DNA of 64,000 bases from Methanobrevibacter millerae. GTDB lineage: Archaea > Methanobacteriota > Methanobacteria > Methanobacteriales > Methanobacteriaceae. The first letter of the stretch is position 1. Each line of letters begins with the position of its first letter. A program made the position numbers and the translations under genes. The notes beneath the pieces were generated by a model, which was not told the DNA's origin, made no database searches, and was given only the letters and a program-made list of their open reading frames with translations. Shown here in pieces: positions 3,958 to 58,444 of this stretch. The stretch spans positions 55,497 to 119,496 of the forward strand of contig SUTF01000004.1 of assembly GCA_015063005.1 (NCBI GenBank). Reading direction: 5' to 3'.

Positions 3958-4257
3958 ATGAATATAACTAAAAATTATAATGAAAAAGAATTAACCATGA
4001 CTATTGAAGGTCGTGTTGATACTATAACTTCACATGATTTAGAAAAAGAAATCAACGACGAATTAGACAATTTTAACTCATTAACATTAGATTTTACTGA
4101 TTTAGAATACATTTCAAGCGCAGGTCTTAGAGTTCTAATTGCAACTCAAAAGAAATTAAAATCAGACAATATTCCATTCGTTATTAAAAATGTTAATGCT
4201 ACCGTAAGTGAAATATTTAGAATGTCTGGTTTTGATAAGATTTTAACGATAGAATGA
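3958..4257 (+). CDS. STAS-domain anti-sigma-factor-antagonist-like protein (RsbV type)
   Basis: This 99-residue protein is a single STAS domain, the usual length for RsbV/SpoIIAA proteins. The signature YISSAGLRVL lies at about residues 51-60, and S54 aligns with the serine phosphorylated by the partner kinase in bacteria. Its stop overlaps the start of the next gene (ATGA), so the two are translationally coupled. In bacteria the dephosphorylated form binds the HATPase kinase and frees its target. Archaea have no sigma factors, so the controlled target here is unknown. The neighbouring NRPS is a candidate by location only. Confidence 0.88.
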   Translation: MNITKNYNEKELTMTIEGRVDTITSHDLEKEINDELDNFNSLTLDFTDLEYISSAGLRVLIATQKKLKSDNIPFVIKNVNATVSEIFRMSGFDKILTIE

Positions 4258-4631
4258 ACACAATAACTTTAAAACCTGAATTAAATCAATTATATACTTT
4301 AAATGAGTTTATATTAAATGAACTTCCGGAAGAAAACATTCCGGTCGAATTGATAGTAGAAGAAATTTTTGTTAATATTGTAAACTATTCAAAAACAGAT
4401 TTTATTAGAGTTAATGTTAAATACGAAAACGAAACATTGACAATGGAATTCATTGACAATGGAATTGAATTTAACCCTCTTTTAAAAGAAGATTATAGCA
4501 TTCCAAATGACATTGATGAGGCACAGATTGGTGGACTTGGAATATTATTTACTAGAGAAATAGCTAACGAAATTTACTATCATAATATAAATGGTGAAAA
4601 TCACTTGAAAATTGTTAAAAAAGTGGAATAA
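4254..4631 (+). CDS. HATPase-domain serine kinase-like protein (RsbW/SpoIIAB type)
   Basis: This is a 125-residue GHKL-type ATPase. The N-box is recognisable as EEIFVNIVNYS, the G1 box as DNGIEFNP, and the G2 box as GGLGILFTREI. This is the pattern of anti-sigma kinases that phosphorylate STAS antagonists. The gene overlaps the STAS gene by four bases and the phosphatase gene by one base (TAATG), so the three proteins should be made together. In bacteria the family binds sigma factors, so its target in an archaeon must be something else. The family call is firm; the role is inferred. Confidence 0.85.
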   Translation: MNTITLKPELNQLYTLNEFILNELPEENIPVELIVEEIFVNIVNYSKTDFIRVNVKYENETLTMEFIDNGIEFNPLLKEDYSIPNDIDEAQIGGLGILFTREIANEIYYHNINGENHLKIVKKVE

Positions 4632-6499: not shown

Positions 6500-6790
6500 T
6501 TCTAGATATGTAACCTTTGATATATGCATTTTAGTTATTGATTCATACAAAATTGTTTTTTACTAAATATTTGATATAGAAAATTGATATAGACATTAAA
6601 TTAATGAACCTGCACATGATTAAAATATAGCTAACATTTCTTTTAGAAAGAGGATTTATCAATTTTATATTCATAGAATATATTGCACCACCCACATATG
6701 CAATTATAAATAGAAAAAATATTGAAGTAAAAACATCCGTAAATAATAAAAAAAGAAAAGAATAAAAGGTTATTTAAAAAATAAATTAAA

Positions 6791-7378
6791 TTAAGCCTTT
6801 ATTCCATTATATAAAATATCTAGGAAATTATTGGCATAGCGGTCAGAGTCAATATTAGGATTCTCATCATATACTTTCAATAAAACTACAGACTGGAATG
6901 TAACACTAAAGCAAACCAATGCCAAAACTCTGGAATCAACCGCCCTGATTTTTCCTTTTTCAATTTGAAATTTGAAAAATTCATCGAGTTTATCAATGAT
7001 TACATTGGTAATTCTTGAAATCAATTGTTTTTTCTCAGGAATATCTCGAACTTCTTCCATAGCTATTTTAAATACACTAAACTCATTATCTGGAAGATTT
7101 AAAAGTCCAATGAAATTACTTTGAAGATATGCCTCAATTTCATCATCCTCGTTAAAATCAAAAATATCTGCCAATTTATCAAAAAGTATCTGAAGATAGT
7201 ACTCCTTTGTAATCTCAACAAGATTATTTTTATTTTGAAACTTCCTGAAAATAGTTACTTCATTTACTTCTGCTTCAGCAGCTATTTTTTTAGTGGTTGC
7301 TTTGGTAAAACCTTCCTTTTGAAGAATTGCAAAAGTAGCATGTATAATCTTCATTTCAGTGCCATTGAATTCAGCCAT
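6791..7378 (-). CDS. TetR-family transcriptional regulator
   Basis: The protein has 195 residues with an N-terminal TetR helix-turn-helix at about residues 10-55 (ATTKKIAAEAEVNEVTIFRKF pattern, read as two adjoining helices). The C-terminal half is a variable helical ligand-binding domain with no recognised ligand motif. A long dyad lies 25-60 bases upstream of its start codon, fitting autoregulation. It is divergent from prephenate dehydrogenase, so it may also act on that promoter, although amino-acid control would be unusual for this family. Confident as TetR; targets unknown. Confidence 0.9.
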   Translation of the reverse strand: MAEFNGTEMKIIHATFAILQKEGFTKATTKKIAAEAEVNEVTIFRKFQNKNNLVEITKEYYLQILFDKLADIFDFNEDDEIEAYLQSNFIGLLNLPDNEFSVFKIAMEEVRDIPEKKQLISRITNVIIDKLDEFFKFQIEKGKIRAVDSRVLALVCFSVTFQSVVLLKVYDENPNIDSDRYANNFLDILYNGIKA

Positions 7379-7402
7379 AATCTATCCCCATTTTTTATAA
7401 CT

Positions 7403-7437
7403 AATTTATATTATGCTTTAACAAAGTAATATAAATT
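7403..7437. promoter_or_regulatory. Long dyad upstream of the TetR gene, probable operator
   Basis: Perfect 11-bp arms AATTTATATTA and TAATATAAATT are separated by 13 bases. The dyad lies 25 bases upstream of the TetR start codon and overlaps the likely TATA/transcription start region. This is the typical place for a TetR autorepressor site. A second, shorter inverted pair (ATATTTTGTT at 7473-7482 and AACAAAATAT at 7525-7534) lies nearer the divergent tyrA gene. Confidence 0.5.
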
Positions 7438-7570
7438 TTGAATAATAAAGTTAAAATCATATGAAATATCAAATATTTTGTTAAAATTCAAAAAAATATA
7501 TTGAATATAAAAAATATAATTTATAACAAAATATTGTTTAATATTCAATTAATATATGATGGAGTTTAAA

Positions 7571-8884
7571 ATGAATAAAAAAGATAATATGACCATTATT
7601 GGTGCTACACGAGGCTTTGGCAGATGGATAGCGGAACATTTAAACAATGATTTCAACATTACCATCACAAGCCCCGACAAAGATTCAGGAATTAAAGTTG
7701 CTGAGGAGTTAAATGTTAAATATAACTCAGACAATGTTGATGCTATACAAAATGCAGACATTGTTATTTTTAGTGTACCAATAGACAAAATGGTAGAAAC
7801 CATAAAGGAAGTCGCTCCACATGCAAATGAAGGGTCATTGTTAATGGATGTCTGCAGCGTGAAAACAGAACCTACAGATGCACTAATGAAATATGCTCCG
7901 AAAAATGTGGAAATATTGCCATGCCATCCAATGTTTGGGCCACGGATTCCCTCAATCAAAAGACAAATAATAGTATTGACTCCTATTAAAGGTAGGGCAA
8001 GCACTTGGCTAGATCGTGTGAAAAGATATTTGGTTGAATCAGAATGTGAACTTGTAATAACGACTCCACAGGAGCATGACAAGTATATGAGCATTGTTCA
8101 AGGCCTGACTCATTTTTCATTCATTACACTAGCTTCAACAATCAGAAAGCTAAACATCAATGTTAAAATGTCAAGGTCATTTTCAAGTCCGGTCTATAGT
8201 CTAATGCTTGATATGGTAAGTCGTATCGTTTATCAAAACCCCCATCTTTATTATTCCATACAGAAAAATAACAAGGAAACTTCAAATGCAAGAAAAACTT
8301 TGATTAAAGAGGGAATATACCTATCCAAATTAATCGAAGATGACAATGAAGAGGATTTCGTTAAAAATATGGTGGAATCTTCTAAGCATTTAGATGAACG
8401 TGAAGAAGCATTAATCCGTTCAGATAAAGCAATAGGGATGTTAAGCCAAAAAGTTAACGTATTAACAAAATCAATAGGAAAAGAATTAGGTTTAGTGGAT
8501 TTATATTCCAAAAAGACATTTGTAGGTATCGTGAAAAAGGTTACATCAAAATGTGTAATATTGGAAAACAATGAAAATGAGGAAATTACATTAAAAATTT
8601 CCAGCATTGACATATTATCCAAAAAAGATCTTTTCAAATGGAAAAAAGACAATATTAAATTGGAAAATTTTGATTTAACTGTCAAGTTGCCTTCAACATG
8701 TGACGAAATATACTTGATTAAAATGTTTGAAAATATTGAAGGAATTATAGATGTAAAAATAACTGATATCAGCCAGATTAACGAGTACCTGACGAATTTC
8801 ACATTTAACTACTCAGTATTTGATAAAAAAGATAAAATTTATGTTGAAAAGTATGTCGAAGGAATTGGCTGGAAAATAATATAA
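7571..8884 (+). CDS. tyrA: Prephenate dehydrogenase with C-terminal regulatory domain
   Basis: This enzyme converts prephenate to 4-hydroxyphenylpyruvate in tyrosine synthesis. The N-terminal Rossmann loop is GATRGFG at residues 11-17. Downstream are the conserved CSVKTEP and CHPMFGP segments that mark TyrA. The 437-residue length fits the archaeal form, which carries an additional C-terminal domain (about 290-437) of probable regulatory function. An upstream in-frame ATG at 7556 exists, but GGAG at 7561-7564 is spaced correctly for 7571, so that start is preferred. The next gene, a broken thioesterase, follows after 15 bases. Confidence 0.9.
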   Translation: MNKKDNMTIIGATRGFGRWIAEHLNNDFNITITSPDKDSGIKVAEELNVKYNSDNVDAIQNADIVIFSVPIDKMVETIKEVAPHANEGSLLMDVCSVKTEPTDALMKYAPKNVEILPCHPMFGPRIPSIKRQIIVLTPIKGRASTWLDRVKRYLVESECELVITTPQEHDKYMSIVQGLTHFSFITLASTIRKLNINVKMSRSFSSPVYSLMLDMVSRIVYQNPHLYYSIQKNNKETSNARKTLIKEGIYLSKLIEDDNEEDFVKNMVESSKHLDEREEALIRSDKAIGMLSQKVNVLTKSIGKELGLVDLYSKKTFVGIVKKVTSKCVILENNENEEITLKISSIDILSKKDLFKWKKDNIKLENFDLTVKLPSTCDEIYLIKMFENIEGIIDVKITDISQINEYLTNFTFNYSVFDKKDKIYVEKYVEGIGWKII

Positions 8885-9453: not shown

Positions 9454-10233
9454 ATGAATTTAGAAGGTGTAGAAAAAACAATGCTTTTGACATTATTTGC
9501 CAAAGCAAAGCATTCACAACAAAAAAATCATAAATTCTATGATTCAAAAGCGATAGAAATCATTTCTAAAATAGATTATGATTTCAGTATTGCTGAAAAG
9601 GACAAATTTATGCAACTTGGAACAATCGCAAGAACCATCGTATTGGACGAAATGGTTAGCGAATATATTAATGTTCATCCAGACTGTACCATCGTAAATA
9701 TTGCATCCGGAATGGATACGCGTTTCAACAGATTAGATAACGGTAAAATCAACTGGTATAATGTGGATTTGGAAAATTCTGCCAAATATAGGCTAAAATA
9801 TATTGAAGATACAGACAGAGTAACAACACTTGCATTCTCAGCAATGGACCCTGACTGGGCTCAGGAAATTTCAATAAGAAATGATGTTTTGATAATTGTT
9901 GAAGGTTTGACAATGTATTTGAATCAGAAGGATGTAGAAAAAATAATTAATATAATTGACAAAAATTTCGATAAATGTACATTATTTATGGAAATAATGC
10001 CACCAATTTCAGTTAAAAACACCAAAGAGGCATCTGTAGAAGATACAGACTCCAAATTCATATGGGGTGTCGATAAAGGTAATGAATTAATAAAATTCAA
10101 TAACAATTTAAAATGGATAAAAGACGTTAATCTATTCGATGGAGTTAATGTCTACAAACCACATTACAGAATAGTTACCTGGCTTCCAATGTTAAGAAAA
10201 AGAATGGATTATATTACTGTACTTGAAAAATAG
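9454..10233 (+). CDS. Class I SAM methyltransferase, leucine carboxyl methyltransferase (LCM/TcmP) family
   Basis: The protein has 259 residues. After an N-terminal helix bundle, the SAM-binding region reads NIASGMDTRFNRL at about residues 84-96, followed by an acidic strand end WYNVDLEN. Together with VEGLTMYL near 150 this is the pattern of the LCM family, which methylates carboxyl or hydroxyl groups. The substrate is unknown. An iron-type palindrome precedes it and feoB is the convergent neighbour with a similar box, so it may act under iron limitation, perhaps on a metal-binding small molecule (inference). Confidence 0.75.
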   Translation: MNLEGVEKTMLLTLFAKAKHSQQKNHKFYDSKAIEIISKIDYDFSIAEKDKFMQLGTIARTIVLDEMVSEYINVHPDCTIVNIASGMDTRFNRLDNGKINWYNVDLENSAKYRLKYIEDTDRVTTLAFSAMDPDWAQEISIRNDVLIIVEGLTMYLNQKDVEKIINIIDKNFDKCTLFMEIMPPISVKNTKEASVEDTDSKFIWGVDKGNELIKFNNNLKWIKDVNLFDGVNVYKPHYRIVTWLPMLRKRMDYITVLEK

Positions 10234-46433: not shown

Positions 46434-46619
46434 TCATTCAATTTGCCTTAGTTTTAACATTTCTTTTAAGTCGTTATCTGTCATTTCTGTGATGAATGAT
46501 TCATTTGAATCAATAGCTAATTCAGCCAATTCCACTTTTTCACTAAGCACTTGATTGATTCGCTCTTCAAACGTTCCGGTTGTGATGAATCTATAAAGAT
46601 TTGGATTTAATTTCATCAT
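46434..46619 (-). pseudogene. C-terminal remnant of a SNF2-family helicase
   Basis: The 61-residue frame LYRFITTGTFEERINQVLSE, KVELAELAI and NDLKEMLKLR matches the extreme C-terminal region of SNF2/Swi2 helicases (RFITxGTxEExI...KxxLA...ELxxLL). Nothing of the helicase core remains upstream, where a different remnant on the other strand begins. It is therefore the tail of a lost gene, even though a ribosome-site-like GGTGGTG precedes its ATG. Confidence 0.65.
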
Positions 46620-47213
46620 TCACCACCCCTATTCGCCAGGCATCTTATTCTATTTTAAACACTATTGCTCTTCAAAAACCAGGATCTCTATCAGTCCAAA
46701 AATTGGCGAATAGCTTTGAATTGTCCAAAACCTCTATTTTAAACATTTTAAAATCATTTTGTAATGCTCATTTGATTTTTGAAGTTGATGCATATGGTTC
46801 GATAACTAAAAGAAATAGGCACCCTAGAGAGTATTATTTCTTATCAACTCAAATGAAAGCTTGCATTTACCAGCAGAATGCTCAATCCACACAAACTAAA
46901 GGTGATTCGGTTCATTATTGGAAAATTATGTTGCTGCTTCACTATTCATTATGAAAGAGAAAACAAAAAGAGATTTTGGAATATTTTATGATTCAAGAAA
47001 AAAAAAACTAATGTTGATTTTTTAATCAATACGGTTATGGGAGATATAATCCCAATTGAAGTAGGTATTGGGGATAAAAATAAAAGACAAATAAAAAATG
47101 CCATGAACAAATATAATTCTGATTTTGGAATTGTAATTTCAAATAAAACTGAAAGTATTGTTAAAGATGAGGATGTGTTATTCATTCCAATCAAAACATT
47201 TTCATTAATGTAA
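46601..47213 (+). pseudogene. C-terminal remnant of an AAA ATPase with DUF4143/PD-(D/E)XK-like end, frameshifted
   Basis: The first part reads VQKLANSFELSKTSILNIL, a winged-helix-like segment following the P-loop domain in this family. It shifts frame near 46905 to FGSLLENYVAASLFIMKEK, then again in a run of A near 47000 to TNVDFLINTVMGDIIPIEVG, the conserved D...E-V region of DUF4143-type proteins, and ends at 47213. The ATPase half is missing: the remnant begins where the SNF2 remnant of the opposite strand starts, which marks a recombination joint. Confidence 0.6.
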
Positions 47214-47510: not shown

Positions 47511-48362
47511 CTACAAAGAATATTCACCAAAGTCCAAGGTTTCCGTTATATGATTATATCTGTCCTCTTCGGGAGGAAGTTGCATATAATCACCATAAAG
47601 ACTTGTTAAAATATTATCATAACCTGAAGGAATATTGACTTCAATATCTTCAAATTTAATCTTTTTGATATCTTTAAAATCATCACGTCTAAAAATTTGA
47701 GGATATTCCTCCGCAGTAGCTGAAATATCAAAAACATATTCTGCATCGGGATTTCTATATTTCCTTAAAAAGTTTAGACATCTCCTATTTAATGTAGATG
47801 GCTTGATTCTAAATAAATTCAAAATATAATGACCTGTATGGGTTGCTAGTTTTGTTGCAGGAGGCAAGTCATCCAACTTAAGTTTTGACATAATTAATAG
47901 CTTATTATATAGAAATGATTTTTTAAGCTGATAATTTCTTTTAAAATTACCCTCCGCCAAATCATCCAAAACAAAAATATCCATATTTATTCCAATATGA
48001 AAATCAACCTGACTGACCCAATGCTCTTCAAATTTGGTATTTTTAATCATTAATTTTGCAAGCAAATGAAAATAATCTTCATGTGTTTCATTACATAACA
48101 ATTCATATTTATCGTTTTTAGATGTAATGAAAATCTTTTTAAATTTTTCAAAATCATCCCTAAACATTATTACATCCAAATCATCATCCCATGGAATGAA
48201 ACCGTTATGCCTGACAGCACCCAAAAGAGATCCGGCATACATATAGTAATTCAGATTATTTTCTTCACAAATTTTAATAAAATCCTTTAAAATCATTAAT
48301 TCCAAGTTTTGAAGATGTTTTAGGACTTTATCATCATATTCATTATATTTCAAGAGCACCAC
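47511..48362 (-). CDS. LicD-family phospho/phosphonate-choline-type transferase (copy 1)
   Basis: This 283-residue protein has the LicD signature GSLLGAVRHNGFIPWDDDLD, with metal-binding aspartates. LicD proteins move a phospho-alcohol from a CDP-linked donor to a glycan. It is the last gene of the phosphonate operon, so its donor may be a CMP-phosphonate (inference). The start is not ATG: GTG 48362 or 48359 or TTG 48353 in a GTGGTGCTCTTG run are possible. A paralogue lies at 54658-55491; the two share GFIPWDDD and the ending LDFGEY. Confidence 0.88.
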   Translation of the reverse strand: MVLLKYNEYDDKVLKHLQNLELMILKDFIKICEENNLNYYMYAGSLLGAVRHNGFIPWDDDLDVIMFRDDFEKFKKIFITSKNDKYELLCNETHEDYFHLLAKLMIKNTKFEEHWVSQVDFHIGINMDIFVLDDLAEGNFKRNYQLKKSFLYNKLLIMSKLKLDDLPPATKLATHTGHYILNLFRIKPSTLNRRCLNFLRKYRNPDAEYVFDISATAEEYPQIFRRDDFKDIKKIKFEDIEVNIPSGYDNILTSLYGDYMQLPPEEDRYNHITETLDFGEYSL

Positions 48363-48371
48363 TCATCTAAG

Positions 48372-49490
48372 TTATTTGGATAAATATTTCATGAAGTTTT
48401 CCTTGTTTTCTATTGCCGTTGTTGTTGGCCTTCCCAAATCGTCACGTGCCCCAATGGAACATTTGACTTCAATAAAGCATAATTTATTCAAGTCTTTGAC
48501 TTTGTTGAGTTCGCTGTCCAAATCATCAAAATTATCGATAGTTACTGCATATGAATATCCGCAGGCCTTTGCGATTTCAACCAAATTCATATTTGATGCT
48601 ACAGTCGGCATTCCACCAACAGTTTCGTGAGCACCATTGTTAATTACAATATGGATAAAGTTATCAGGATTAACATTTGCTACAACACCCATAGAGCCCA
48701 TATGCATCAATACTGCACCATCACCATCAATGCACCAGATACGCTCATCTGGCTTGTTGATTGCCACTCCAAGTGCAATTGATGAGGAATGGCCCATTGA
48801 TCCAACAGTCAAGAAATCATATTTATGGGATTGTCCATTAGCTTCCCTTATTTCAAACAGTTCACGGCTTGCCTTACCGGTTGTTGAAACTATAGGATCC
48901 TCCCCGCTGACATCGACAATATGCCTGATGATTTCTTCACGAATCATTTCATTGTCATTTTTGTATTCGACTTTCTCATCATATGTTAAGGCATTTTTTC
49001 CAATGACAAATGCAACGTTTTTTCCTTCATCGAGAATAGATGAATATTTTTTCATCTGATTTTTTAACTCATCAACTGAGGTTTCCTTATCAATGACGAA
49101 ATTTTCTATATCCATCAAATCAAGCAAATCACAGGTGATTTGTCCCTGATAGATGTGCTGAGGTTCATCATGGATTCCCGGCTCGCCTCTCCAACCAATA
49201 ACAAAAATGCAAGGAATAGCATAAACTTTATCGTTTAAAAGGGATGCGACCGGATTGATAATGTTTCCTTCACCACTGTTTTGCATATAAACAACAGGAA
49301 TCTTTCCCGTTGATAAATGATAACCAGCAGCCAATGCAGTACAGTTACCTTCATTTGCAGCAATTATATGGTGATTTTTATCAATTCCATAAGTATTCAT
49401 CAGATAGTTACATAATGCCTTTAACTGTGAGTCTGGAACGCCTGTGTAAAAGTCACAGCTTAAAACATCAACAAAATCTTCAACTTTCAT
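48372..49490 (-). CDS. Phosphonopyruvate decarboxylase
   Basis: This 372-residue thiamine-diphosphate enzyme decarboxylates phosphonopyruvate to phosphonoacetaldehyde, driving the unfavourable PEP mutase step. N-terminal TGVPDSQLKALCNY and ANEGNCTALAAGYHL hold the catalytic glutamate region. The TPP-Mg motif is IDGDGAVLMHMGSMG and ends near VINNGAHET. It resembles sulfopyruvate decarboxylase (ComDE), but that enzyme is two polypeptides; here one fused chain sits in an operon with PEP mutase, which fixes the call. No CoM genes are nearby. Confidence 0.9.
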   Translation of the reverse strand: MKVEDFVDVLSCDFYTGVPDSQLKALCNYLMNTYGIDKNHHIIAANEGNCTALAAGYHLSTGKIPVVYMQNSGEGNIINPVASLLNDKVYAIPCIFVIGWRGEPGIHDEPQHIYQGQITCDLLDLMDIENFVIDKETSVDELKNQMKKYSSILDEGKNVAFVIGKNALTYDEKVEYKNDNEMIREEIIRHIVDVSGEDPIVSTTGKASRELFEIREANGQSHKYDFLTVGSMGHSSSIALGVAINKPDERIWCIDGDGAVLMHMGSMGVVANVNPDNFIHIVINNGAHETVGGMPTVASNMNLVEIAKACGYSYAVTIDNFDDLDSELNKVKDLNKLCFIEVKCSIGARDDLGRPTTTAIENKENFMKYLSK

Positions 49491-49500
49491 GCTATTTCCC

Positions 49501-50682
49501 TTATTTATTTAATTGTGGAGTTATTATTTTTTCAATCAAGAAATCTGCGGTTTTTTCAATATCTTCGTATTTCACTTCTTTTGGAAGGTCAGCTTCAAAG
49601 ACATTTTTAACTTTATCAATTAAATCATCCGTGTAAATCAATGTAGCGTCCTTGATGTCTTCTACACCATCCAATGCTAAAGATTCACGATTAGCCTTAT
49701 CCATTTCATCAAATGTAAATACTGATTCGTCAATCCAGGCAGAAATATTATTATCTTTATATCCTATGATTACAGGATATCCTCCGATGTGACCGAATAC
49801 TCCAGGTGAGAATACTTTTTGGTCTTCACCTGTGCGTATTGCATCGATTATTGCACTGATTATGCGATAATTACTTGATGCATTCATCATGTTTCTTTTT
49901 TGGTCAACAGGCATGCTTATAGAACATCTTGAATAGATTTCATCATGATTAATATCCTGTTCTTCGCCTTTGTAGTATATTTTAAGAGGTAATTCAACTC
50001 CTTCGGTCTGTCCTTCCTTGCTTATTACAACATCATGGAAGTGTGCTGCTGCAAAATTAAAGTCAACATTCCAGAAATCATCTACACCCAAAATGTCTGC
50101 TACTGCAAATTTCATTCTTGGAATCAAATGGTTTAGGTTTCCGCTTCCAAAGTCAGGATATGCCTTTTCAGCACTTTTAAGCCATGGAATTACTGCATCA
50201 GAATAAGAGGTGTTGATAACAACAGCATCAGTATCCACATTGTCACATGCTTCCATTATGTTTTTTGTGAATTTAATGGATAATGGAGTCCAGATACCAT
50301 AAGCACGCACATTATTCCATGATATACTACCGTATTTAAGACCAGGATAAGCTCTGCTTGAGTTAACAATGAAATCCGGATTATGTTTGTCTATTGCATT
50401 TTCAATTGATGAGATGTCATTTAAATCAACACCTGCTTCAACAATGATTTCAGATTTGTTCAGTTCACGAATAAGACCTGCAACACGAACTATATTAACG
50501 TCAGATTGCATTTTTTCCTGGTTTCTTCCAACAACGACCAATTTTATTGCAGGGTCGTTTTTACTGACTAAAAAATCCAATAAATAGGTACCTACACTAC
50601 CTAAACCAATAATCATGATTGTAATTTCATCATTTTTAACATGCTCTTCTACAACTTGTAATCTTTCATTTAATGACTTCAT
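49501..50682 (-). CDS. NAD(P)-binding dehydrogenase of unknown substrate in the phosphonate operon
   Basis: The protein has 393 residues. The N-terminal Rossmann fold reads IMIIGLGSVGTYLLDFL near residues 20-36, a saccharopine/malate-dehydrogenase-like layout, and the second half has FNFAAAHFHDVV and FSPGVFGHIGGYPV. No exact family is recognised. It overlaps the preceding nucleotidyltransferase gene by four bases (ATGA) and lies next to the decarboxylase gene. A likely role is acting on phosphonoacetaldehyde or a derived intermediate, for example reduction to 2-hydroxyethylphosphonate. This is inferred from location only. Confidence 0.7.
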   Translation of the reverse strand: MKSLNERLQVVEEHVKNDEITIMIIGLGSVGTYLLDFLVSKNDPAIKLVVVGRNQEKMQSDVNIVRVAGLIRELNKSEIIVEAGVDLNDISSIENAIDKHNPDFIVNSSRAYPGLKYGSISWNNVRAYGIWTPLSIKFTKNIMEACDNVDTDAVVINTSYSDAVIPWLKSAEKAYPDFGSGNLNHLIPRMKFAVADILGVDDFWNVDFNFAAAHFHDVVISKEGQTEGVELPLKIYYKGEEQDINHDEIYSRCSISMPVDQKRNMMNASSNYRIISAIIDAIRTGEDQKVFSPGVFGHIGGYPVIIGYKDNNISAWIDESVFTFDEMDKANRESLALDGVEDIKDATLIYTDDLIDKVKNVFEADLPKEVKYEDIEKTADFLIEKIITPQLNK

Positions 50683-51449
50683 AAGTTATTCCTCCAATAT
50701 TTTTTAATAATTTCATAATCTTCACGAGTATTACAGTTTACCCAATGCTTAAATGCAATGACATCTATCTGATCATCTGTTAAATCAAAATACTTTTGAA
50801 TAATACCTAAATTAGTGTCTTCAATTAAATTCTCCTTAAAATTCTCATTAGCTATTGCAAGCAATTCCAGGTCATTGAATTTCCAAATCTGACCAGAATT
50901 AAAAATGGCCTTGAAAGGCTCGTCAATATTCAACAATCCATGGTCACTGTTAAATGCATAGACATACTTATCTTCACCATTCTGATATAAAACAACTGCT
51001 TTATTTGAATAAATCGCTTCAGGATTTGTTGTCAAAACGCTATTTTGCGATTCAATGACATTTTGGAATGAATCAATATCAACATCCAAGTCCCCTTCAA
51101 CAAAAAGAATCTCATCAATATCATCGAACTTACTTAATGCTTCACGAATTCCAAGGTATAAACTATATCCTGAGCTTAAATCATCAAAATGATCATTATA
51201 AACCAGATTAATTTTATCCTTTAAATCATCTGGAATATAATCTGCAACATAATCAATCAAATCATCATACTTATATCCGCCAACAATGATAATCTTATCT
51301 GCATATGCAGTTTTTTGAAGCATTTGATAAATTAATGTATCTTTAGGATTTTCATCATAATATAGACACTTTAATATTTTTTCATCTTCAGAAAATCCTT
51401 GGTTGAATCTGCTTGATATGCCTGCGACTGTAATGACTACTATTTTCAA
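50679..51449 (-). CDS. MobA/LicC-like nucleotidyltransferase, candidate phosphonate cytidylyltransferase
   Basis: This 256-residue GT-A-type nucleotidyltransferase begins KIVVITVAGISSRF, a variant of the glycine-rich NTP loop. It has VEGDLDVDID as the metal-binding strand and a C-terminal HWVNCNTREDYE typical of LicC/PntC relatives that make CDP-choline or CMP-aminoethylphosphonate. Start codon is TTG at 51449 with GGAG nine bases upstream; no ATG alternative fits. In this operon it probably activates a phosphonate (or phospho-alcohol) with CTP for the LicD transferase. Confidence 0.75.
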   Translation of the reverse strand: MKIVVITVAGISSRFNQGFSEDEKILKCLYYDENPKDTLIYQMLQKTAYADKIIIVGGYKYDDLIDYVADYIPDDLKDKINLVYNDHFDDLSSGYSLYLGIREALSKFDDIDEILFVEGDLDVDIDSFQNVIESQNSVLTTNPEAIYSNKAVVLYQNGEDKYVYAFNSDHGLLNIDEPFKAIFNSGQIWKFNDLELLAIANENFKENLIEDTNLGIIQKYFDLTDDQIDVIAFKHWVNCNTREDYEIIKKYWRNNL

Positions 51450-51463
51450 AGTATTCTTCTCCT

Positions 51464-52468
51464 TTAATTTTTGGTGTAATTTTCAACACATTCGGTTAAT
51501 CCTTTATCCAAATCCATTATTGGTTTCCAGTTAGTTCTAGCTTTAATCTTTTCAGTAGATAACAATCTTCTTTCAGGATCAGACTCACGATAACCTTCAA
51601 ACTTAATCACAGGTTCATCAATACCCATTTTTTCTGCAATTAACTTAGCCAAATCAATGATTGAAATTTCCTCATCAGTAGCAACATTATATATTGTACC
51701 ATCTAATGCTGAATCTGTTTTGGCCAATTCCAATACAGCACTGCAACTGTCATAATTGTTTAAAAATGTTCTGCGATTCTTTTTAGAGTTTTCAAGCAGT
51801 ACAACCTCATCATTATTTTTAAAGCTTTCTATGATATGAGGTATGATATGCTTTGGATATTTCTCGTCCTTGCTGTACACATTAGCAAATCGGATGGAGC
51901 ATCCTTTGATTTTACCGTTATCCACTGCATCCTTCATGAAAAACTCAGTCAATAACTTACCTGTTGCATAGCTGGTTCTTTGGCTGTGCTCTGCATCAGC
52001 CATAGTGATATAATCAGATTCCTTAACACCACCATGTTCGTTCCAGGAGTTCATTGAATAAACCTCGGAAGTGGAACAGTTAATGTATTTATCAGCGCCA
52101 ACATCAATAGCTTGGCTTAAAAAGTCATTCATTCCCACAACATTAGTTTCATAAGTTGAATAGACTTTATAGAAATGTTCTGTGTGAACAACAGCTGCAC
52201 AGTTTATATAAATTACTTCATCAAAACCATCTTTTAATTCCAATACCAATGATTTAATATCATTCATTTGCTTCTTATCATTTAAATCATATTCAAAGAA
52301 TTGGAATCTTTCATCATCAATACAGTCACTTACTGTTTCAATTGAAGATGCAAAAAAATTGTCAAAACCAATGATTTCGACTGAATCTTCACTTTGATTT
52401 AAAAGCTGGCGAACCAACTCGTTTCCAGTCATTCCGGTTACACCACTGATAACATATAAAATTTTCAT
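51464..52468 (-). CDS. NAD-dependent epimerase/dehydratase (extended SDR)
   Basis: This 334-residue extended short-chain dehydrogenase has the loop SGVTGMTGNELV at the N-terminus and the catalytic SYATGK. It is of the type that converts nucleotide-sugars. The ATG at 52468 fits GGTG six bases upstream; the in-frame GTG nine bases earlier is less likely. It lies nine bases after the phosphoesterase gene, in the phosphonate operon, and may build the sugar that is to be modified. Substrate unknown. Confidence 0.85.
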   Translation of the reverse strand: MKILYVISGVTGMTGNELVRQLLNQSEDSVEIIGFDNFFASSIETVSDCIDDERFQFFEYDLNDKKQMNDIKSLVLELKDGFDEVIYINCAAVVHTEHFYKVYSTYETNVVGMNDFLSQAIDVGADKYINCSTSEVYSMNSWNEHGGVKESDYITMADAEHSQRTSYATGKLLTEFFMKDAVDNGKIKGCSIRFANVYSKDEKYPKHIIPHIIESFKNNDEVVLLENSKKNRRTFLNNYDSCSAVLELAKTDSALDGTIYNVATDEEISIIDLAKLIAEKMGIDEPVIKFEGYRESDPERRLLSTEKIKARTNWKPIMDLDKGLTECVENYTKN

Positions 52469-52477
52469 GTTTAACAC

Positions 52478-53206
52478 CTATATTCCATTTTCTAATCTTT
52501 TTTGATAAAATTCATCAACGCTTCCATCAAATAAATCCATAGCTTCTTTTACTGGATATTTGACTGATTTTAATTCAACGCTCATTAATTCTGTGTCTAA
52601 AATTGCATATTGTGCATTAGGATTGTGATTTCTAGGCTGTCCTACAGAGCCTGGATTAATGAACAGGACTGACTTTTTATTTCTCATATCCGGATTATCA
52701 ACTTCGTAAAACTTTTGAAATGTGTGAGGATAATGGGAATGTCCTGATAGGACAATGTCATAGTCAATATAGTTTCCGTTCAGGTTATCCGGGAAAATTG
52801 CTTTCCAGAAATAATCGTTTAAAGATCCGTGAACAGCTAAAACCTTTTTATTATCTAAATTAAATTCATATTTACCTTTATTTATCAATTCATTATTCAA
52901 ATAGCTCCTAGCATCATCACTTAATTGTGAATCTGTGAATTTTGCTGATTCAACTCCTCTTTTGGATGAAAAAAAGTTAAAGTCATGGGTTAAAATAGCT
53001 CTTTCATGATTTCCCCATATATTGCAGATGATTTTGGATGAGAGATTGTCCTTAATGTAGTTTGTAACCTCATTGGATTGCATCCCATAGTCAATCAAAT
53101 CACCTAACAGGACAATATTATCAAAATTATCTTTTAAATCACCCATTACTGCATCCAATGCATGTAAATTACCATGAATATCTGATAATATGGCATATCT
53201 TGACAT
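52478..53206 (-). CDS. Calcineurin-like metallophosphoesterase
   Basis: This 242-residue protein begins MSRYAILSDIHGNLHALDAV and has GDLIDYG, WGNHERA, VHGSLND and SGHSHYP: all five metal-binding motifs of YfcE-type phosphoesterases. FINPGSVGQPRN follows. In the phosphonate operon it could hydrolyse a phosphate ester or a CMP-linked intermediate, or be a proofreading/housekeeping activity. It lies 10 bases after the PEP mutase gene and 9 before the epimerase gene. Confidence 0.88.
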   Translation of the reverse strand: MSRYAILSDIHGNLHALDAVMGDLKDNFDNIVLLGDLIDYGMQSNEVTNYIKDNLSSKIICNIWGNHERAILTHDFNFFSSKRGVESAKFTDSQLSDDARSYLNNELINKGKYEFNLDNKKVLAVHGSLNDYFWKAIFPDNLNGNYIDYDIVLSGHSHYPHTFQKFYEVDNPDMRNKKSVLFINPGSVGQPRNHNPNAQYAILDTELMSVELKSVKYPVKEAMDLFDGSVDEFYQKRLENGI

Positions 53207-53216
53207 CTAATCACGT

Positions 53217-54524
53217 TTATAATTCATCAATTAATGTAATGATATCTTTGATTGACAAAAGTTCCTCATCGATTTCATGAGCTCTGTGATGTTTTAAAAT
53301 GCTTTTGGCAGCATTCTGCATTGCAGGAAAAGCTGCTCTCAATAGTTGGTTAGCATAAATGACAATATTAACTCCATGGGCGATTAGTTCCTCTTCAGTT
53401 ATTGTATTAAATGAGGACGGTACAACGACAATTGGAGTTTCCTTATCTTCAGCTCTGAACTCGTCGCAGAATTCCAATATTTCATCAGGCTCTTTTCTTC
53501 TGCTGTGAATCATGATTCCGTCTGCACCAGCATCCCTAAATGCAAATGCTCTTTTAAGTGCATCATTCATACCCTGTTCTAAAATTAGGCTTTCTATTCT
53601 TGCAATAATCATAAAGTCATCAGATAACTGTGCGTTTTTACCTGCAGCAATCTTTTCACAGAAATGATCTATTTCATCCTGAGTCTGCTTTACTTCAGTC
53701 CCGAAAAGTGAATTTTTCTTCAATCCAATTTTATCTTCAATGATAACAGCAGAAACTCCCATTCTTTCTAAAGAACGTACAGTATAAACAAAATGCTCTG
53801 CAATGCCACCGGTATCGCCGTCAAAGATGATAGGTTTGGTTGTAACTTCCATAATATCGTTGATTGTTCGAAATCTTGAAGTCATGTCAACCAGTTCAAT
53901 ATCAGGCTTTCCTTTTTCTGTACTATCACACAGGCTTGAAATCCACATTGCATCAAACTGGTCGATATTATCTTTTTCTGCAATAACTGTTTTTTCAACT
54001 ATTAAACCTGTAAGACCGCTGTGAACTTCCATAGTCTTGACAACAGGAACCATATCCAATAATTTTCTCAAACGGCCTCTTCTAAGCTCAGGCATAGATA
54101 ATTGTTCCCTCATTTGCCTATCAATTTTTTGGATTTTAGGATTGAATGTATATGGAACCTCAATAAGATCTCCACCATATTTATCCAAAACATCCAAAAT
54201 GTTTTGCTTAATAACTTTCATGGAGTCTTCAGACCAGTTGTCTCCATGAATTATGAAATCTGGGCGAAGTTCCTCAACCACTTTATCATACATTATTTGA
54301 TCTTGAATAATGACTTTACTAACATCAGGAATTTCTTCAACAAGTTTTACACGTTCAGAAGTAGATTTTAAAGGAAATCTATTATATTTTACCATTTCAG
54401 AATCACAAAGAACACCAATAACAACATCCCCATATTTTTTAGCTTCATTAATTAAATTTAAGTGTCCTTCGTGAATGATATCTGTACAAAAACAAGTATA
54501 AACAATAGGATTACTAGATGTCAT
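53217..54524 (-). CDS. pepM: Cytidylyltransferase-PEP mutase fusion
   Basis: This 435-residue protein has two domains. Residues 1-135 form a TagD/GCT-type cytidylyltransferase with HEGH at 18-21 and NRFPLKSTSERVKL. Residues 150-435 form phosphoenolpyruvate mutase, with DGDTGG at 235-240 (Mg site) and EDKIGLKKNS at 263-272, the EDKxxxxxNS signature that separates mutases from isocitrate lyases. It makes phosphonopyruvate, the entry to essentially all natural phosphonates, and couples it to nucleotide activation. First gene of the minus-strand operon, with an upstream divergent promoter. Confidence 0.95.
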   Translation of the reverse strand: MTSSNPIVYTCFCTDIIHEGHLNLINEAKKYGDVVIGVLCDSEMVKYNRFPLKSTSERVKLVEEIPDVSKVIIQDQIMYDKVVEELRPDFIIHGDNWSEDSMKVIKQNILDVLDKYGGDLIEVPYTFNPKIQKIDRQMREQLSMPELRRGRLRKLLDMVPVVKTMEVHSGLTGLIVEKTVIAEKDNIDQFDAMWISSLCDSTEKGKPDIELVDMTSRFRTINDIMEVTTKPIIFDGDTGGIAEHFVYTVRSLERMGVSAVIIEDKIGLKKNSLFGTEVKQTQDEIDHFCEKIAAGKNAQLSDDFMIIARIESLILEQGMNDALKRAFAFRDAGADGIMIHSRRKEPDEILEFCDEFRAEDKETPIVVVPSSFNTITEEELIAHGVNIVIYANQLLRAAFPAMQNAAKSILKHHRAHEIDEELLSIKDIITLIDEL

Positions 54525-54545
54525 TTTAATTACCTTAATTTATAT

Positions 54546-54604
54546 ATAATATATTATTTATTAAAAAAGAAATATTTAAAAATTTCCAATAATATATTAT
54601 TTAT
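54546..54604. promoter_or_regulatory. Divergent promoter with twin 16-bp sequences
   Basis: ATAATATATTATTTAT occurs exactly at 54546-54561 and at 54589-54604, 43 bases apart, between the PEP mutase start (54524) and the LicD start (54658). The core AATATATT is self-complementary, so each copy can serve as a TATA box in either direction, one for each divergent transcript. Confidence 0.5.
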
Positions 54605-54657
54605 ATAAATTCCTCTAATTAACAAATTAAAATTAAACTTCAAAATGGAGAAAAACC

Positions 54658-55491
54658 ATGTTTAAAACAAAAAGATACGATGATGAAACATTAAAACACC
54701 TGCAAAAAGTGCAGTTAATGATGCTAAAGGATTTTATTAAAATATGTGAAGATAATGACATATTATACTTTATGAATGGAGGATCATTACTTGGAACTAT
54801 CAGACACGGAGGATTTATCCCATGGGATGATGATATTGACATAATGATGTTTAGAAAGGATTTTGATAAACTTAATGAATTTATGAAAAATAATCCGAAT
54901 GACAAATATCATTTAATAGATGTTTTAAATGAAGAAACTTATCATTATACCTGGGCAAGATTTAATCTAAAAAATACTGAACTTAGAGAATGGTGGGCGG
55001 ATCAAGTTGACTATAAAGTTAACATATTTATGGATATTTTTATTATATACGATATGCCAAAAAATAGATTAAAAAAATTCACCCATAAATGGAGATGTTT
55101 TGCACTTAATCAATTAGTACAGTATTCATTAGTGAAATTTGAAAACGAATCTAAAATAAAGCAATTTATTCAACAGAGCATATATTATATACTTAAAGTA
55201 ATACCGATTTCTCCAACTACAATTAAAAAAAGATGCATCAAAACATATAGAAAATATGATTATGAGGAATGTGAGGAACTCTGTGATTTTCCAGCATTAG
55301 TTTTATTGCCAATATACAAGAAAAAAGACTGGTTACCGGCCAAAAAAGCAAAATTTGAAGATATTACAGTTAATATACCGAATAATCCTGATGCAATTTT
55401 AACTATAATTTACGGAGATTATATGAAGTTACCTCCAGAAGATAAAAGATTCAGACCTGCTCCTGAAAAACTGGACTTTGGTGAATACTAA
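54658..55491 (+). CDS. LicD-family transferase (copy 2)
   Basis: The 277-residue paralogue of the 47511-48362 protein carries GGSLLGTIRHGGFIPWDDD and shares DKY, KFEDI and the LDFGEY ending. ATGGAG lies eight bases before the ATG. It faces the phosphonate operon across a shared promoter region, and its neighbours downstream are a GT2 glycosyltransferase and a CDP-alcohol-type pathway. Two LicD copies suggest two different CDP-linked donors or two acceptor sites. Confidence 0.88.
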   Translation: MFKTKRYDDETLKHLQKVQLMMLKDFIKICEDNDILYFMNGGSLLGTIRHGGFIPWDDDIDIMMFRKDFDKLNEFMKNNPNDKYHLIDVLNEETYHYTWARFNLKNTELREWWADQVDYKVNIFMDIFIIYDMPKNRLKKFTHKWRCFALNQLVQYSLVKFENESKIKQFIQQSIYYILKVIPISPTTIKKRCIKTYRKYDYEECEELCDFPALVLLPIYKKKDWLPAKKAKFEDITVNIPNNPDAILTIIYGDYMKLPPEDKRFRPAPEKLDFGEY

Positions 55492-55526: not shown

Positions 55527-56540
55527 ATGAATTATAAAATTAGTGTAATTATTCCTTGTTATAATGCAGAATCAACTTTAAATAGATGTATCGACTCAGT
55601 TATCAACCAAACATTTGGTTTTGAAAATATCGAATTGATTTTATATGATGATGCTTCAACTGATTCTACGAAAAAAATCATTGAAAATTATGCTAATCAA
55701 TACAGCAATATTGTTCCAATTTATTCCACTGAAAATAGTGGTTTTCCAGTTCGTGGACGAAATGAAGGAATAAAAATAGCTAGTTCTGATTATATTATGT
55801 TCATGGATAATGATGATGAATATGATTTAAACATTTGTCAATTTTTTTACAATATTATTAGTGAATCAAACCCGGATTTAATTTCTTGTGGAAAATTTAA
55901 TTTAGATTATTTATCTAACGAATACAATTTAACAACACCAGACGATAAAACTAAACTAAATATCAAAAAAGAAGACATACTTTATTTTGAAGATAGATTC
56001 ATTTGGAATAAAATTTACAAAAAAGATATTCTATTAGAAAATAATATTTTATTCCCTGAAAATAAATATGCAGAAGATTTATATTTTAATATTAAATATT
56101 TACTACATTGTGAAACATTAATTGATGTTCCAGAGTATAAAGGATATATAAGACATGTACAAGAAGATTCAATATCTAGAAGTTGGAATTTAGATGATAT
56201 GAGCCACATATTAGATGTTTCAAAATTAATATTTTCAGAAATATCCTCATACCAGAACATAGACTTTTCAAGATTATATAAAAAGGAAATTGGCATTATA
56301 ATATATAAACTTTATTCATTACATTTATTGAATAATAAAAAAGAAGTTATAATCTTTTTAAAAAAAATTCATGAATTTGAAAAAGAGATTTCATTTAATG
56401 CTGCATTAGATTCTATTCAAGACCTAGCGAATAGATTAATATTAAAAAATAGATATGGACTTTGTTATTATTATTTGAAAATAGTTGAAAAAATATATAA
56501 TTCAAATAATTTAAGAAAATTATATCGTAAAACTACTTAA
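55527..56540 (+). CDS. GT2-family glycosyltransferase
   Basis: This 337-residue protein begins with the GT-A loop KISVIIPCYNAESTLNRCID and carries NRGxxxA-type and DNDDEYD motifs (DDD-equivalent DxD) near residue 92. RGRNEGIKIASSDYIMFMDN is the donor-site stretch. It lacks membrane helices, so it acts as a soluble or peripheral transferase that extends a lipid-linked glycan. A second GT2 lies at 60746-61792. Confidence 0.88.
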   Translation: MNYKISVIIPCYNAESTLNRCIDSVINQTFGFENIELILYDDASTDSTKKIIENYANQYSNIVPIYSTENSGFPVRGRNEGIKIASSDYIMFMDNDDEYDLNICQFFYNIISESNPDLISCGKFNLDYLSNEYNLTTPDDKTKLNIKKEDILYFEDRFIWNKIYKKDILLENNILFPENKYAEDLYFNIKYLLHCETLIDVPEYKGYIRHVQEDSISRSWNLDDMSHILDVSKLIFSEISSYQNIDFSRLYKKEIGIIIYKLYSLHLLNNKKEVIIFLKKIHEFEKEISFNAALDSIQDLANRLILKNRYGLCYYYLKIVEKIYNSNNLRKLYRKTT

Positions 56541-56541
56541 A

Positions 56542-57588
56542 TTATTTATTTAATTTTAAATAATCATATGTCCTTTTAAAACCTTCCTTAACTGAATATT
56601 TTGCATTCCAGTTAAGTTCTTTTCTAATTTTTTCAGAGGACAATATTCCAAATTTGAAAGGAGCATATCCTGAGTCATTGTCATCATGTTCAATATTAAA
56701 AACCAATTCTATATTCTCAGGAGAAATTTCTACCATTGTTTCAGCCAGCTGCCTAATGGAAACTTCATTTCTTTCATCAGAAATGTTATAGACAATGTCT
56801 TCGCTTTTTAATAAAACCTTAAATATTGCACTTACTGCATCACTAACATAAGTATATGTTCTAACTGATGATCCGTCACTGTTCAATACAATATTTTCAT
56901 CATTCACCAAGTTTTTTAAGAAATCCGCCTGAACACGACCATCATAAATACTCATTCCAGGTCCATAAGTATGTGCCAGCCTAACAATTTTTGTATTTAA
57001 TCCATATTCCTTTTTAAATCCAACACACATGTTTTCAGCTGCCTTTTTACCTTCAGCATAAGCATTTCTTGGAACCAATTGGTCAATAATTCCAAAACTT
57101 TCCTCAGTAAAATATTCCTGATTTTCCAAAGGCTGACCATAAATTTCTCTTGAAGAAATAAATAAATATCCTTCCAAATTTTTTTCACGGGCAAGAATTA
57201 ATGTATTTGCAGTTCCCAAAGTATTGGCAAAATTTGTCTCAACAGGTTTTTCTTTCATTATCTTTGGACTTGCCGGACTGGCCGCATGAATAATGTATTC
57301 GATTTCACCATCATAGGTTATTTTCTCTGAAACATCCTGAACAATAGGACAGACATAATCCTTACTTAATATATCATCATTTAATTTATTTAAATTCCTA
57401 ACAAGAGGTATTATTTTAATATTAGCATCATAATCCTCATTTAACTTAACTAAAGTGTAAATAAAATAGCTTCCAATCATTCCTGATGCACCAGTGACCA
57501 TTATACTTTTATTGTACAATTCATTAAGCCCATCATTTTCCTGAATTATCTGTTCTGCATCGCCATCAATAATATAATTTAATAACAT
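56542..57588 (-). CDS. NAD-dependent epimerase/dehydratase (nucleotide-sugar type)
   Basis: This 348-residue extended SDR has VTGASGMIGSYFIYTLVK near residue 30 and the catalytic AYAEGKKAAE. The C-terminal half resembles UDP-glucuronate decarboxylase/dTDP-glucose dehydratase relatives. It is convergent with the GT2 gene (end 56540) and divergent from the cytidylyltransferase at 57726, all within the glycan island. It probably modifies a nucleotide-sugar; which one is not known. Confidence 0.85.
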   Translation of the reverse strand: MLLNYIIDGDAEQIIQENDGLNELYNKSIMVTGASGMIGSYFIYTLVKLNEDYDANIKIIPLVRNLNKLNDDILSKDYVCPIVQDVSEKITYDGEIEYIIHAASPASPKIMKEKPVETNFANTLGTANTLILAREKNLEGYLFISSREIYGQPLENQEYFTEESFGIIDQLVPRNAYAEGKKAAENMCVGFKKEYGLNTKIVRLAHTYGPGMSIYDGRVQADFLKNLVNDENIVLNSDGSSVRTYTYVSDAVSAIFKVLLKSEDIVYNISDERNEVSIRQLAETMVEISPENIELVFNIEHDDNDSGYAPFKFGILSSEKIRKELNWNAKYSVKEGFKRTYDYLKLNK

Positions 57589-57725
57589 AATTTCATCTTA
57601 AAAAATTTATAAATATTTATTCAAAATTTTATTAATCTTTTTATTTAAATATAACATAATTTAAAATTTATTTTAGTTTAACTATAAATAACATTATTAA
57701 GTAATAGTAATATCAAGTGATAAAA

Positions 57726-58427
57726 ATGAATTATTTAATTTTAATGATGGGTGGAAAAGGCACTAGATTAGGTGCCGATAGACCAAAACAATACATAGAA
57801 ATCGACGGAATACCAATTTTCGCTTATATATTAAAATCATACAACCAAGTCGAATGCATTGATGAAATAGTCATAGTATCAAATGAAATTTGGATAGACT
57901 ATGTTGAAAAATGGACATCAATGATACAGATAGATAAACCTATTTCAATTGTTGCTGGAGGAAAAACACGTTCACATTCAGTTTACAATGGACTAAACGC
58001 TATTTCAAATAAAGCAACTGATGATGACATTGTACTTCTTCATGATGCAACTCACCCATATGTTGATGAAAAAGGTACAATTGAAGTTATCGAAGCAATA
58101 AAAGAATATGGTGGTGCAACATTAGGAGCATACCAATATGACACAGTATACAGGATGAATGAAAAAGGATTCATTACGGATGTTATTCCTAGACAGGAAC
58201 TGGTTGCAGGGGCATCTCCAGAAGGTTTCAAATTTGGTGAAATATTCCCAATTTATGATGCTGCAGATGATGAAGAACTTGAACAGATGACATCCGGTGG
58301 AGCATTGGCTTTAGAGCATGGAATCAAAATGAAAACAATTGAAGCAAATATTATTAATTTAAAAATTACTTATCCAAACGATTTGGAAATATTTAAAAAG
58401 ACTATTCACAGTTATTTCTTTGAATAA
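57726..58427 (+). CDS. IspD/TarI-like cytidylyltransferase
   Basis: The 233-residue enzyme begins MNYLILMMGGKGTRLGADRP, KQYIEIDG, with GGKTRSHSVYNGL and HDATHPYV: IspD-family signatures. Archaea use mevalonate and have no MEP pathway, so the fitting member is the TarI type, which makes CDP-ribitol or a related CDP-polyol. It lies 17 bases before a GatZ/KbaZ-family gene, so the pair may form one CDP-activated polyol. ATG 57726 is preferred because GTGAT fits; GTG 57717 is also in frame. Confidence 0.8.
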   Translation: MNYLILMMGGKGTRLGADRPKQYIEIDGIPIFAYILKSYNQVECIDEIVIVSNEIWIDYVEKWTSMIQIDKPISIVAGGKTRSHSVYNGLNAISNKATDDDIVLLHDATHPYVDEKGTIEVIEAIKEYGGATLGAYQYDTVYRMNEKGFITDVIPRQELVAGASPEGFKFGEIFPIYDAADDEELEQMTSGGALALEHGIKMKTIEANIINLKITYPNDLEIFKKTIHSYFFE

Positions 58428-58444
58428 ATACTCCTCGTGATTAT

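Follow-up and report, generated by a model that had tools for sequence, protein, structure and literature searches.

A putative phosphonate-tailoring gene block at a surface-polysaccharide locus of Methanobrevibacter millerae and in gut bacteria

Surface phosphonates are widely predicted from genomes and have seen little chemical exploration (PMC6697681; papers are cited here by accession and from excerpts). Here we describe a 64,000-nucleotide stretch of the Methanobrevibacter millerae assembly GCA_015063005.1 (contig SUTF01000004.1, positions 55,497 to 119,496; hereafter 'the window', numbered from its first base), in which genes for phosphonate synthesis accompany a block of four genes encoding a metallophosphatase (MPE), a short-chain dehydrogenase (SDR1), a nucleotidyltransferase-like protein (NTase6564) and an oxidoreductase (SDH). 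We judge it an even call that this block is an undescribed third phosphonate-tailoring pathway—beside the transaminase route to 2-aminoethylphosphonate (AEP) and the iron alcohol dehydrogenase (Fe-ADH) route to 2-hydroxyethylphosphonate (HEP)—which would assemble a new, nucleotide-bound phosphonate for attachment to the surface glycans of gut bacteria from five phyla or more, and which methanogenic archaea would have received by transfer.

Among described systems, the pnt clusters with PntC of Treponema denticola and Atopobium rimae combine phosphoenolpyruvate (PEP) mutase (Ppm, often fused to a nucleotidyltransferase), phosphonopyruvate decarboxylase (Ppd), cytidylyl activation and LicD-like genes (PMC6697681). 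The same paper treats the nucleotidyl activation of phosphonates, finds 59.5% of Ppm joined to additional domains, for the most part PF12804 or PF01467, and has Fom1 making the cytidine monophosphate (CMP) conjugate CMP-HEP en route to fosfomycin. For methanogens, the M. millerae SM9 paper placed PEP mutase and Ppd in a four-gene cluster of strain ZA-10 and suggested cell-wall polysaccharide modification (PMC4987999), and ppm, ppd and adh were reported for Methanocorpusculum vombati, with antibiotic phosphonates proposed (PMC10035134). A methylphosphonate-modified exopolysaccharide of Nitrosopumilus maritimus is cited in PMC9381506, and one survey found pepM and ppd together in just 30 of 865 genomes (PMC11066067). 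A phosphonate-decorated archaeal surface, which the original prediction for this locus had taken to be undescribed, had already been proposed or cited (PMC4987999, PMC9381506), and methanogen PEP mutase genes are in print. The new part is the tailoring block that replaces the usual third-step enzymes; no description of it was found in the literature searched, which covered few subscription journals and no supplements.

Phosphonate genes within a polysaccharide locus

Seven tightly spaced genes run on the minus strand of the window from 54524 to 47511, with gaps, in ascending coordinates and between mechanically listed starts, of 9, 10, -4, 14, 0 and 10 bases; a second LicD gene diverges from them. 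In the order of the run, followed by the intergenic gap and the divergent gene, the features are:

53217–54524, minus: CyT-Ppm, a cytidylyltransferase domain (CyT; HEGH intact) N-terminal to PEP mutase (EDKIGLKKNS); Pfam and NCBIfam, CyT against 5x3d
52478–53206, minus: MPE, calcineurin-like metallophosphatase, member of the four-gene block; Metallophos_2, 6.3e-20
51464–52477, minus: SDR1, extended short-chain dehydrogenase of nucleoside-diphosphate-sugar epimerase/dehydratase type; Pfam and NCBIfam, GxxGxxG and YxxxK present
50679–51449, minus: NTase6564, nucleotidyltransferase-like, Pfam DUF6564; 299.6 bits, cut-off 25
49501–50682, minus: SDH, NAD(P) oxidoreductase; Pfam saccharopine-dehydrogenase NADP domain, modelled lactate/malate dehydrogenase fold
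48372–49490, minus: Ppd, phosphonopyruvate decarboxylase; TIGR03297, 472.4 bits, cut-off 312.5
47511–48362, minus: LicD1, LicD-family phosphotransferase, DDDLD motif (by eye); PF04991, 145.8 bits
54525–54657, no strand: AT-rich intergenic gap of 133 bases between the divergent genes; TATA-like stretches on both strands (by eye, weak)
54658–55491, plus: LicD2, divergent LicD-family phosphotransferase, DDDID motif (by eye); PF04991, 129.1 bits

Scans of ten window proteins with Pfam and NCBIfam models bore out every gene that the original prediction had named, at the coordinates above, as well as the single tightly spaced strand with its divergent second LicD. The prediction had passed over MPE and SDR1, and the nucleotidyltransferase(s) it mentioned proved to be of two different kinds, the CyT domain fused to Ppm and the DUF6564 protein. 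The TATA-like stretches between the divergent genes are weak evidence for a shared promoter.

The PEP mutase, called from its EDK...NS signature, scored 416.6 bits against the equivalog model TIGR02320 (cut-off 319.55), as compared to 93.9 bits against methylisocitrate lyase (TIGR02317; cut-off 354.4) and 153.6 bits against phosphonopyruvate hydrolase (TIGR02321; cut-off 374.4). By eye its motif reads EDKIGLKKNS, and the pattern EDKx5NS is kept in all 66 related Ppm rows. These scores and the motif rule out an isocitrate-lyase-like enzyme, the alternative that had been flagged from the start. In the source genome (G000; 2.16 Mb, 20 contigs, 89.5% complete), no second PF13714 protein exceeded the cut-off, the sole other match reaching 21.7 bits. 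Ppd likewise lies well above its equivalog threshold; a sulfopyruvate decarboxylase of coenzyme M synthesis was rejected, at 117.3 and 67.8 bits, both under the respective cut-offs. From this gene content, the set very probably makes phosphonates.

Two candidate activators stand in the run. The CyT domain matches the Fom1 CyTase 5x3d at 2.1e-28. Of 29 Methanobacteriaceae rows, 28 (with the window's) keep its HxGH motif, L063 starting only downstream of it; all 10 rows of the Bacillota group keep it too. In contrast to the Fom1 type, the second histidine is lost in all 28 non-Bacillota bacterial rows (27 taken from the alignment, L105 read separately), which have HPGL (26) or HPGI (L103 and L105). 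If both histidines of HxGH are needed for activity, as is usual in this superfamily, the fused domain is dead in these bacteria, and NTase6564 is likely their main activator. Given its intact motif, the CyT domain of the archaeon may activate as well. Pfam at E 0.001 recognises NTase6564 as DUF6564 only, leaving PntC-type PF12804 unmatched, and NCBIfam gives weak MobA-type matches under cut-off (TIGR03310, 3.3e-4). A search of the Protein Data Bank (PDB) with NTase6564 gave no useful match, and the literature search found no paper on DUF6564.

Measured against the pnt clusters, as far as these are described in PMC6697681, the window shares Ppm, Ppd, cytidylyl activation and LicD-like genes. 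It differs in having no AEP transaminase, in an invariant nucleotidyltransferase that Pfam assigns to DUF6564, and in the extra SDR, the modelled lactate dehydrogenase (LDH)-fold oxidoreductase and the metallophosphatase. As in N. maritimus, an archaeal phosphonate is thought to reside on surface polysaccharide; yet MpnS, the marker there, was not recognised among the ten window proteins scanned. CyT-Ppm shares its domain order with Fom1, but sits in a polysaccharide-locus context, and neither a radical SAM protein nor an epoxidase was seen in the same ten proteins. The Fom1-like architecture would also suit a secreted, antibiotic-like small phosphonate of the sort suggested for Methanocorpusculum in the excerpts of PMC10035134, Fom1 itself working toward fosfomycin (PMC6697681); with LicD and polysaccharide genes as companions, and no recognised resistance or export gene among the proteins scanned, we hold this for highly improbable.

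Gene content and context thus sustain what the original prediction proposed—phosphonate synthesis, nucleotide activation and LicD within a surface-polysaccharide locus—apart from its novelty. We think it rather probable that the locus is a surface-glycan phosphonyl-tailoring operon with a third-step block, that is, that a surface phosphonate arises by this route; attachment of the phosphonate to the surface is likely from the company the genes keep.

The four-gene block in methanogens and bacteria

We surveyed 138 Methanobacteriaceae genomes, taking stretches around Ppm and reading their gene order. Ppm of the window's kind was present in 28 genomes, in 17 at ≥80% identity (one a fragment) and in 12 at 54–64% (one a fragment), with G066 holding both kinds. 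The block MPE-SDR1-NTase6564-SDH was found in 16 of the 138, counting the window's own, as was SDH, a seventeenth match (G124) being a 30% fragment. DUF6564 at ≥293.7 bits marked exactly these 16 genomes. Although 56 genomes pass Pfam's low cut-off of 25, the other 40 are weak (best 43.9 bits) and include the type B nucleotidyltransferases introduced below.

Three cassette types were discerned. Type A, that of the window, comprises the seven genes, with LicD following Ppd in most stretches, L061 and L062 excepted; related genomes repeat this order wholly or for the most part, so the cassette is not a chance grouping. Type B (13 loci in 12 genomes) consists of a nucleotidyltransferase (no match in L079), CyT-Ppm, Ppd and an Fe-ADH, the latter seen in 11 loci (10 genomes), the other two loci ending at contig ends. 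Its Fe-ADH is closest to TIGR03405, under that model's cut-off. Type C (G083, locus L060) carries CyT-Ppm, a nucleotidyltransferase-AEP transaminase fusion of 621 residues (TIGR03301, 368.2 bits; cut-off 360.8), a methyltransferase, Ppd and LicD. Family scans of the window's cassette proteins detected neither an AEP transaminase nor an Fe-ADH. The source genome, 89.5% complete as noted, yielded at best 35.8 bits for TIGR03301 and no match to a TIGR03405-like, HEP-type Fe-ADH, which was found in two of 12 genomes searched (G066, at its type B locus, and G113), both under cut-off.

Against this background, ZA-10 and M. vombati resemble the window in joining Ppm and Ppd in gut methanogens, with a wall-polysaccharide role proposed for ZA-10. 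From the excerpts at hand, the third step of Methanocorpusculum is of the adh type, unlike type A, and the ZA-10 cluster resembles type B by gene number alone.

One locus counted with type B, L078 (G096, contig C50), carries a CyT-Ppm of 64% identity and an upstream nucleotidyltransferase before a contig end cuts it. Its Ppm groups near Bacillota rows, apart from type B, and it may represent a further cassette type.

To look beyond archaea, GTDB contigs were scanned with an SDH alignment (A1, built from 13 of the 16 genomes, two genes interrupted by a stop codon and one that was split being left out). This returned 59 loci, those of Methanobrevibacter among them. Forty-eight were bacterial, most of them gut or rumen metagenome-assembled genomes (MAGs) by their record titles (RUG denoting rumen). 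SDH identity was 58–77% in Bacillota and the unclassified D16-56, 53–60% in Treponema, Bacteroidota, Fibrobacter and one Planctomycetota, and 49% in one Oscillospiraceae fragment. Many rows are near relatives, Fibrobacter foremost. The matches included Prevotella sp. ne3005 and Hoylesella saccharolytica JCM 17484, both of them cultured strains.

After 14 loci ending at contig ends had been left out, 34, from five phyla, had enough flank for their gene content to be read, a gene (LicD, MPE or SDR1) being scored as absent when tblastn with the window's copy gave nothing at 50 bits. SDH was accompanied by Ppd and NTase6564 in all 34 (NTase6564 broken in L105), by MPE in 33 and by SDR1 in 32; the whole block stood together with SDH in 32. 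Ppm lay within 7.5 kb of SDH in 33 loci, and at ~8 kb in L119; a LicD match fell within 7.5 kb in 25. Fe-ADH was seen in none, and AEP transaminase matches in two (a 23% match in L137, a real one in L105). In 18 host genomes searched whole, DUF6564 reached ≥280 bits once in each of 16, at the coordinates of the locus; G151 had it twice, with two cassettes, and G146 only as two fragments.

Chemistry and product of the block

The Pfam match of SDH is confined to the saccharopine-dehydrogenase NADP domain, in all 30 members of an alignment (A3) of the window, two further Methanobrevibacter and 27 of the 48 bacterial loci. A model built from these 30 sequences had a predicted local distance difference test score (pLDDT) of 91.7, against 68.9 for an earlier model from a shallow alignment. 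Fold searches with it (Foldseek, VIA-align 2) gave LDH or malate dehydrogenase (MDH) throughout the 50 matches listed by each, a result that leaves room for other families; the best match listed had Z 22.7 and a root-mean-square deviation of 3.1 over 279 residues (model range 17–350). SDH thus likely has a lactate/malate-dehydrogenase fold. Residues N157, R189 and H214, the same in all 30 rows, presumably correspond to the NAD-site asparagine, substrate arginine and catalytic histidine of LDH. Their spacing is 32 and 25, as compared to 33 and 24 in LDH (LDH numbering, alignment by eye). LDH-like chemistry is plausible for the modelled enzyme. A saccharopine- or carboxynorspermidine-type dehydrogenase was rejected, as the NADP-binding half alone matched and carboxyspermidine dehydrogenase came up at E 0.96 in the PDB profile search.

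On equivalog-level family membership, Ppm would convert PEP to phosphonopyruvate and Ppd would yield phosphonoacetaldehyde, which SDH, SDR1, NTase6564 and MPE would turn into a nucleotide-activated phosphonate. In this scheme, SDH would most likely reduce phosphonoacetaldehyde or a close carbonyl relative, NTase6564 would join the acid to a nucleotide, SDR1 would work on the nucleotide-bound phosphonate, and MPE would strip phosphate or a stalled nucleotide conjugate. LicD1, LicD2 or both would then move the phosphonate onto a glycan for which the nearby flippase would be the exporter. We favour a hydroxyalkylphosphonate as the product, nucleotide-activated and transferred by LicD onto a surface glycan; that it is specifically HEP-like is a tentative proposal, to which we give somewhat less than an even chance.

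The fold with its conserved N, R and H would equally fit a branch beside Ppd in which SDH, acting like LDH, reduces phosphonopyruvate to phosphonolactate, a compound that 2-hydroxyacid dehydrogenases yield in other pathways (PMC12871164, as excerpted). We consider this unlikely, Ppd being present in every one of the 34 flanked bacterial loci, where it would compete for the substrate.

Two apparent replacements bear on the block's role. The Ppm of type C falls within the group holding 14 of 15 type A rows (Shimodaira-Hasegawa-like approximate likelihood ratio test, SH-aLRT, 96), its nearest row being G036 at 88; in G083, the block was therefore probably exchanged for a transaminase set. In Treponema L105, a nucleotidyltransferase-AEP transaminase fusion lies between Ppd and remains of the block, of which SDH is open, NTase6564 is in two fragments (9501–9954) and MPE and SDR1 have no match. 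These two cases are the strongest indication that the block fills an equivalent role, the conversion of phosphonoacetaldehyde into an activated form, and is probably a functional alternative to the transaminase cassette, from which sameness of product does not follow.

The same replacements could be taken to mean that the product is AEP, or an N-substituted form of it, made either by NAD(P)H-dependent reductive amination through SDH or by an unlinked aminotransferase. Such an aminotransferase, at 225–234 bits against TIGR03301 and hence under cut-off, is present in 10 of the 11 further Methanobacteriaceae genomes searched, and Fibrobacter succinogenes MAGs carry the block, S85 of that species being cited in PMC9311074, as excerpted, for structural work on AEP in bacterial polysaccharides. 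However, the unlinked gene is probably a general one, as it also occurs in G083, which has a true AEP transaminase; only two of the 18 block-bearing bacterial genomes searched whole (G143 and G146) hold an AEP transaminase over cut-off, and none was evident in the source genome. The LDH/MDH fold is not known to form amines, and a cassette exchange at a surface locus may well alter the product. We thus regard an AEP product as quite unlikely and retain the hydroxyalkylphosphonate. Both routes are present in G143 (Clostridiales; L100, L157), which has the block and a separate over-cut-off AEP transaminase on different contigs.

Several points weigh against a block that feeds a reduced phosphonate to surface glycans. 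In SDH, the place of LDH Asp168 is taken by hydrophobic Leu186/Ile187, without an aspartate; LDH/MDH enzymes use 2-oxo acids, of which phosphonoacetaldehyde is not one; and hhalign of SDH against nine malate dehydrogenases of the genus gave E 0.05, from shallow profiles. The bacterial loci were seeded by SDH itself, and their count is silent on phosphonate clusters that lack it; nine of the 34 have no LicD match within 7.5 kb. Transfer of a phosphonate from CMP to glycan by LicD is itself putative in the excerpts available, and both the C-P product and the polymer are predictions from genes. Although both LicDs clear the Pfam cut-off of 22.6 bits, the sole NCBIfam model they match is a lipid phosphotransferase, NF045866 diacylglycerol cholinephosphotransferase, at 99 and 94.9 bits. 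LicD could accordingly serve a phosphonolipid, moving the phosphonate to a lipid head group; but these scores are far under the cut-off of 225, and glycosyltransferase genes and a flippase-like one share the locus, which makes a glycan acceptor the better fit and a lipid one very unlikely.

Should the block prove to be a third tailoring route, its product would be an obvious target for discovery, in the Prevotella and Hoylesella strains named above as well as in methanogens. It would bear on a report of high phosphate in M. ruminantium walls (PMC2812497, as excerpted), and surface variation of this kind could matter for methane-mitigation vaccines and for phages. Through the apparent cassette swaps, nature also provides strains that differ in the tailoring step for comparison.

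Origin, chromosomal site and neighbouring genes

Trees were quick searches supported by SH-aLRT only, with donor direction read from nesting under midpoint rooting. In the SDH tree, 15 Methanobrevibacter rows (support 99) fell inside a 25-row group with 10 Bacillota (support 98). Type A rows also grouped with Bacillota in the Ppm, SDR1, NTase6564 and Ppd trees, MPE agreeing more weakly, while one type A Ppm, L062 (G040), lay outside the main group. Type B formed a separate group of 12 rows in each of the two informative trees, Ppm and Ppd. The cassette was thus probably acquired from gut Bacillota, transfer being the simplest reading of these trees.

In nine of 13 20-kb stretches of type A or C, the neighbour of the cassette is the sodium-symporter-like gene that also flanks it in the window; with SDH in 15 further genomes of the family, contamination of the MAG is unlikely. 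Among 14 cassette-less genomes of the genus searched for the symporter gene, seven stretches were taken. In three, the site holds a LicD with genes of 235, 363–367 and 442 residues; a fourth has a LicD, and the remaining three lack one. One of the three, L174 (G058; 3961–7913), encodes, next to LicD, three proteins that a family scan identified as a methyltransferase, a class-V aminotransferase and a 442-residue cytidylyltransferase-Gfo/Idh fusion, a set to which L175 and L176 were likened by gene size and order. The L174 set resembles CDP-serinol-type pathways and is possibly a CDP-serinol-like substituent pathway in methanogens. The site looks exchangeable for LicD-delivered phospho and phosphono groups, which lends support to the decoration model.

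Between the cassette and the symporter gene, a short helix-turn-helix-like open reading frame (46601–46954) resembles by eye the tail of a larger gene and is perhaps a scar of an earlier exchange at this site. On the other side of the cassette lie:

55527–63467, minus: a family 2 glycosyltransferase (GT2) and a second short-chain dehydrogenase (SDR2); Pfam
55527–63467, no strand assigned: IspD-like, GatZ-like, methyltransferase, GT2 and Wzx-like flippase genes, named by eye without a family scan

Several of these genes recur at related loci. At 57717–59746, the IspD-like cytidylyltransferase adjoins the GatZ/KbaZ-like protein (both names by eye), and the pair is kept together with SDR2 (56542–57588) in L056, L057, L060 and L063. 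In L174 (1067–2733), a bacterial-type NAD(P) glycerol-3-phosphate dehydrogenase, GpsA (over the NCBIfam cut-off), lies beside an IspD-like cytidylyltransferase, and a 322-residue gene stands next to the IspD-like gene in L051–L054 and L062 as well, judged by sizes only. The GpsA and IspD-like pair may feed a glycerol-phosphate wall polymer in that archaeon.

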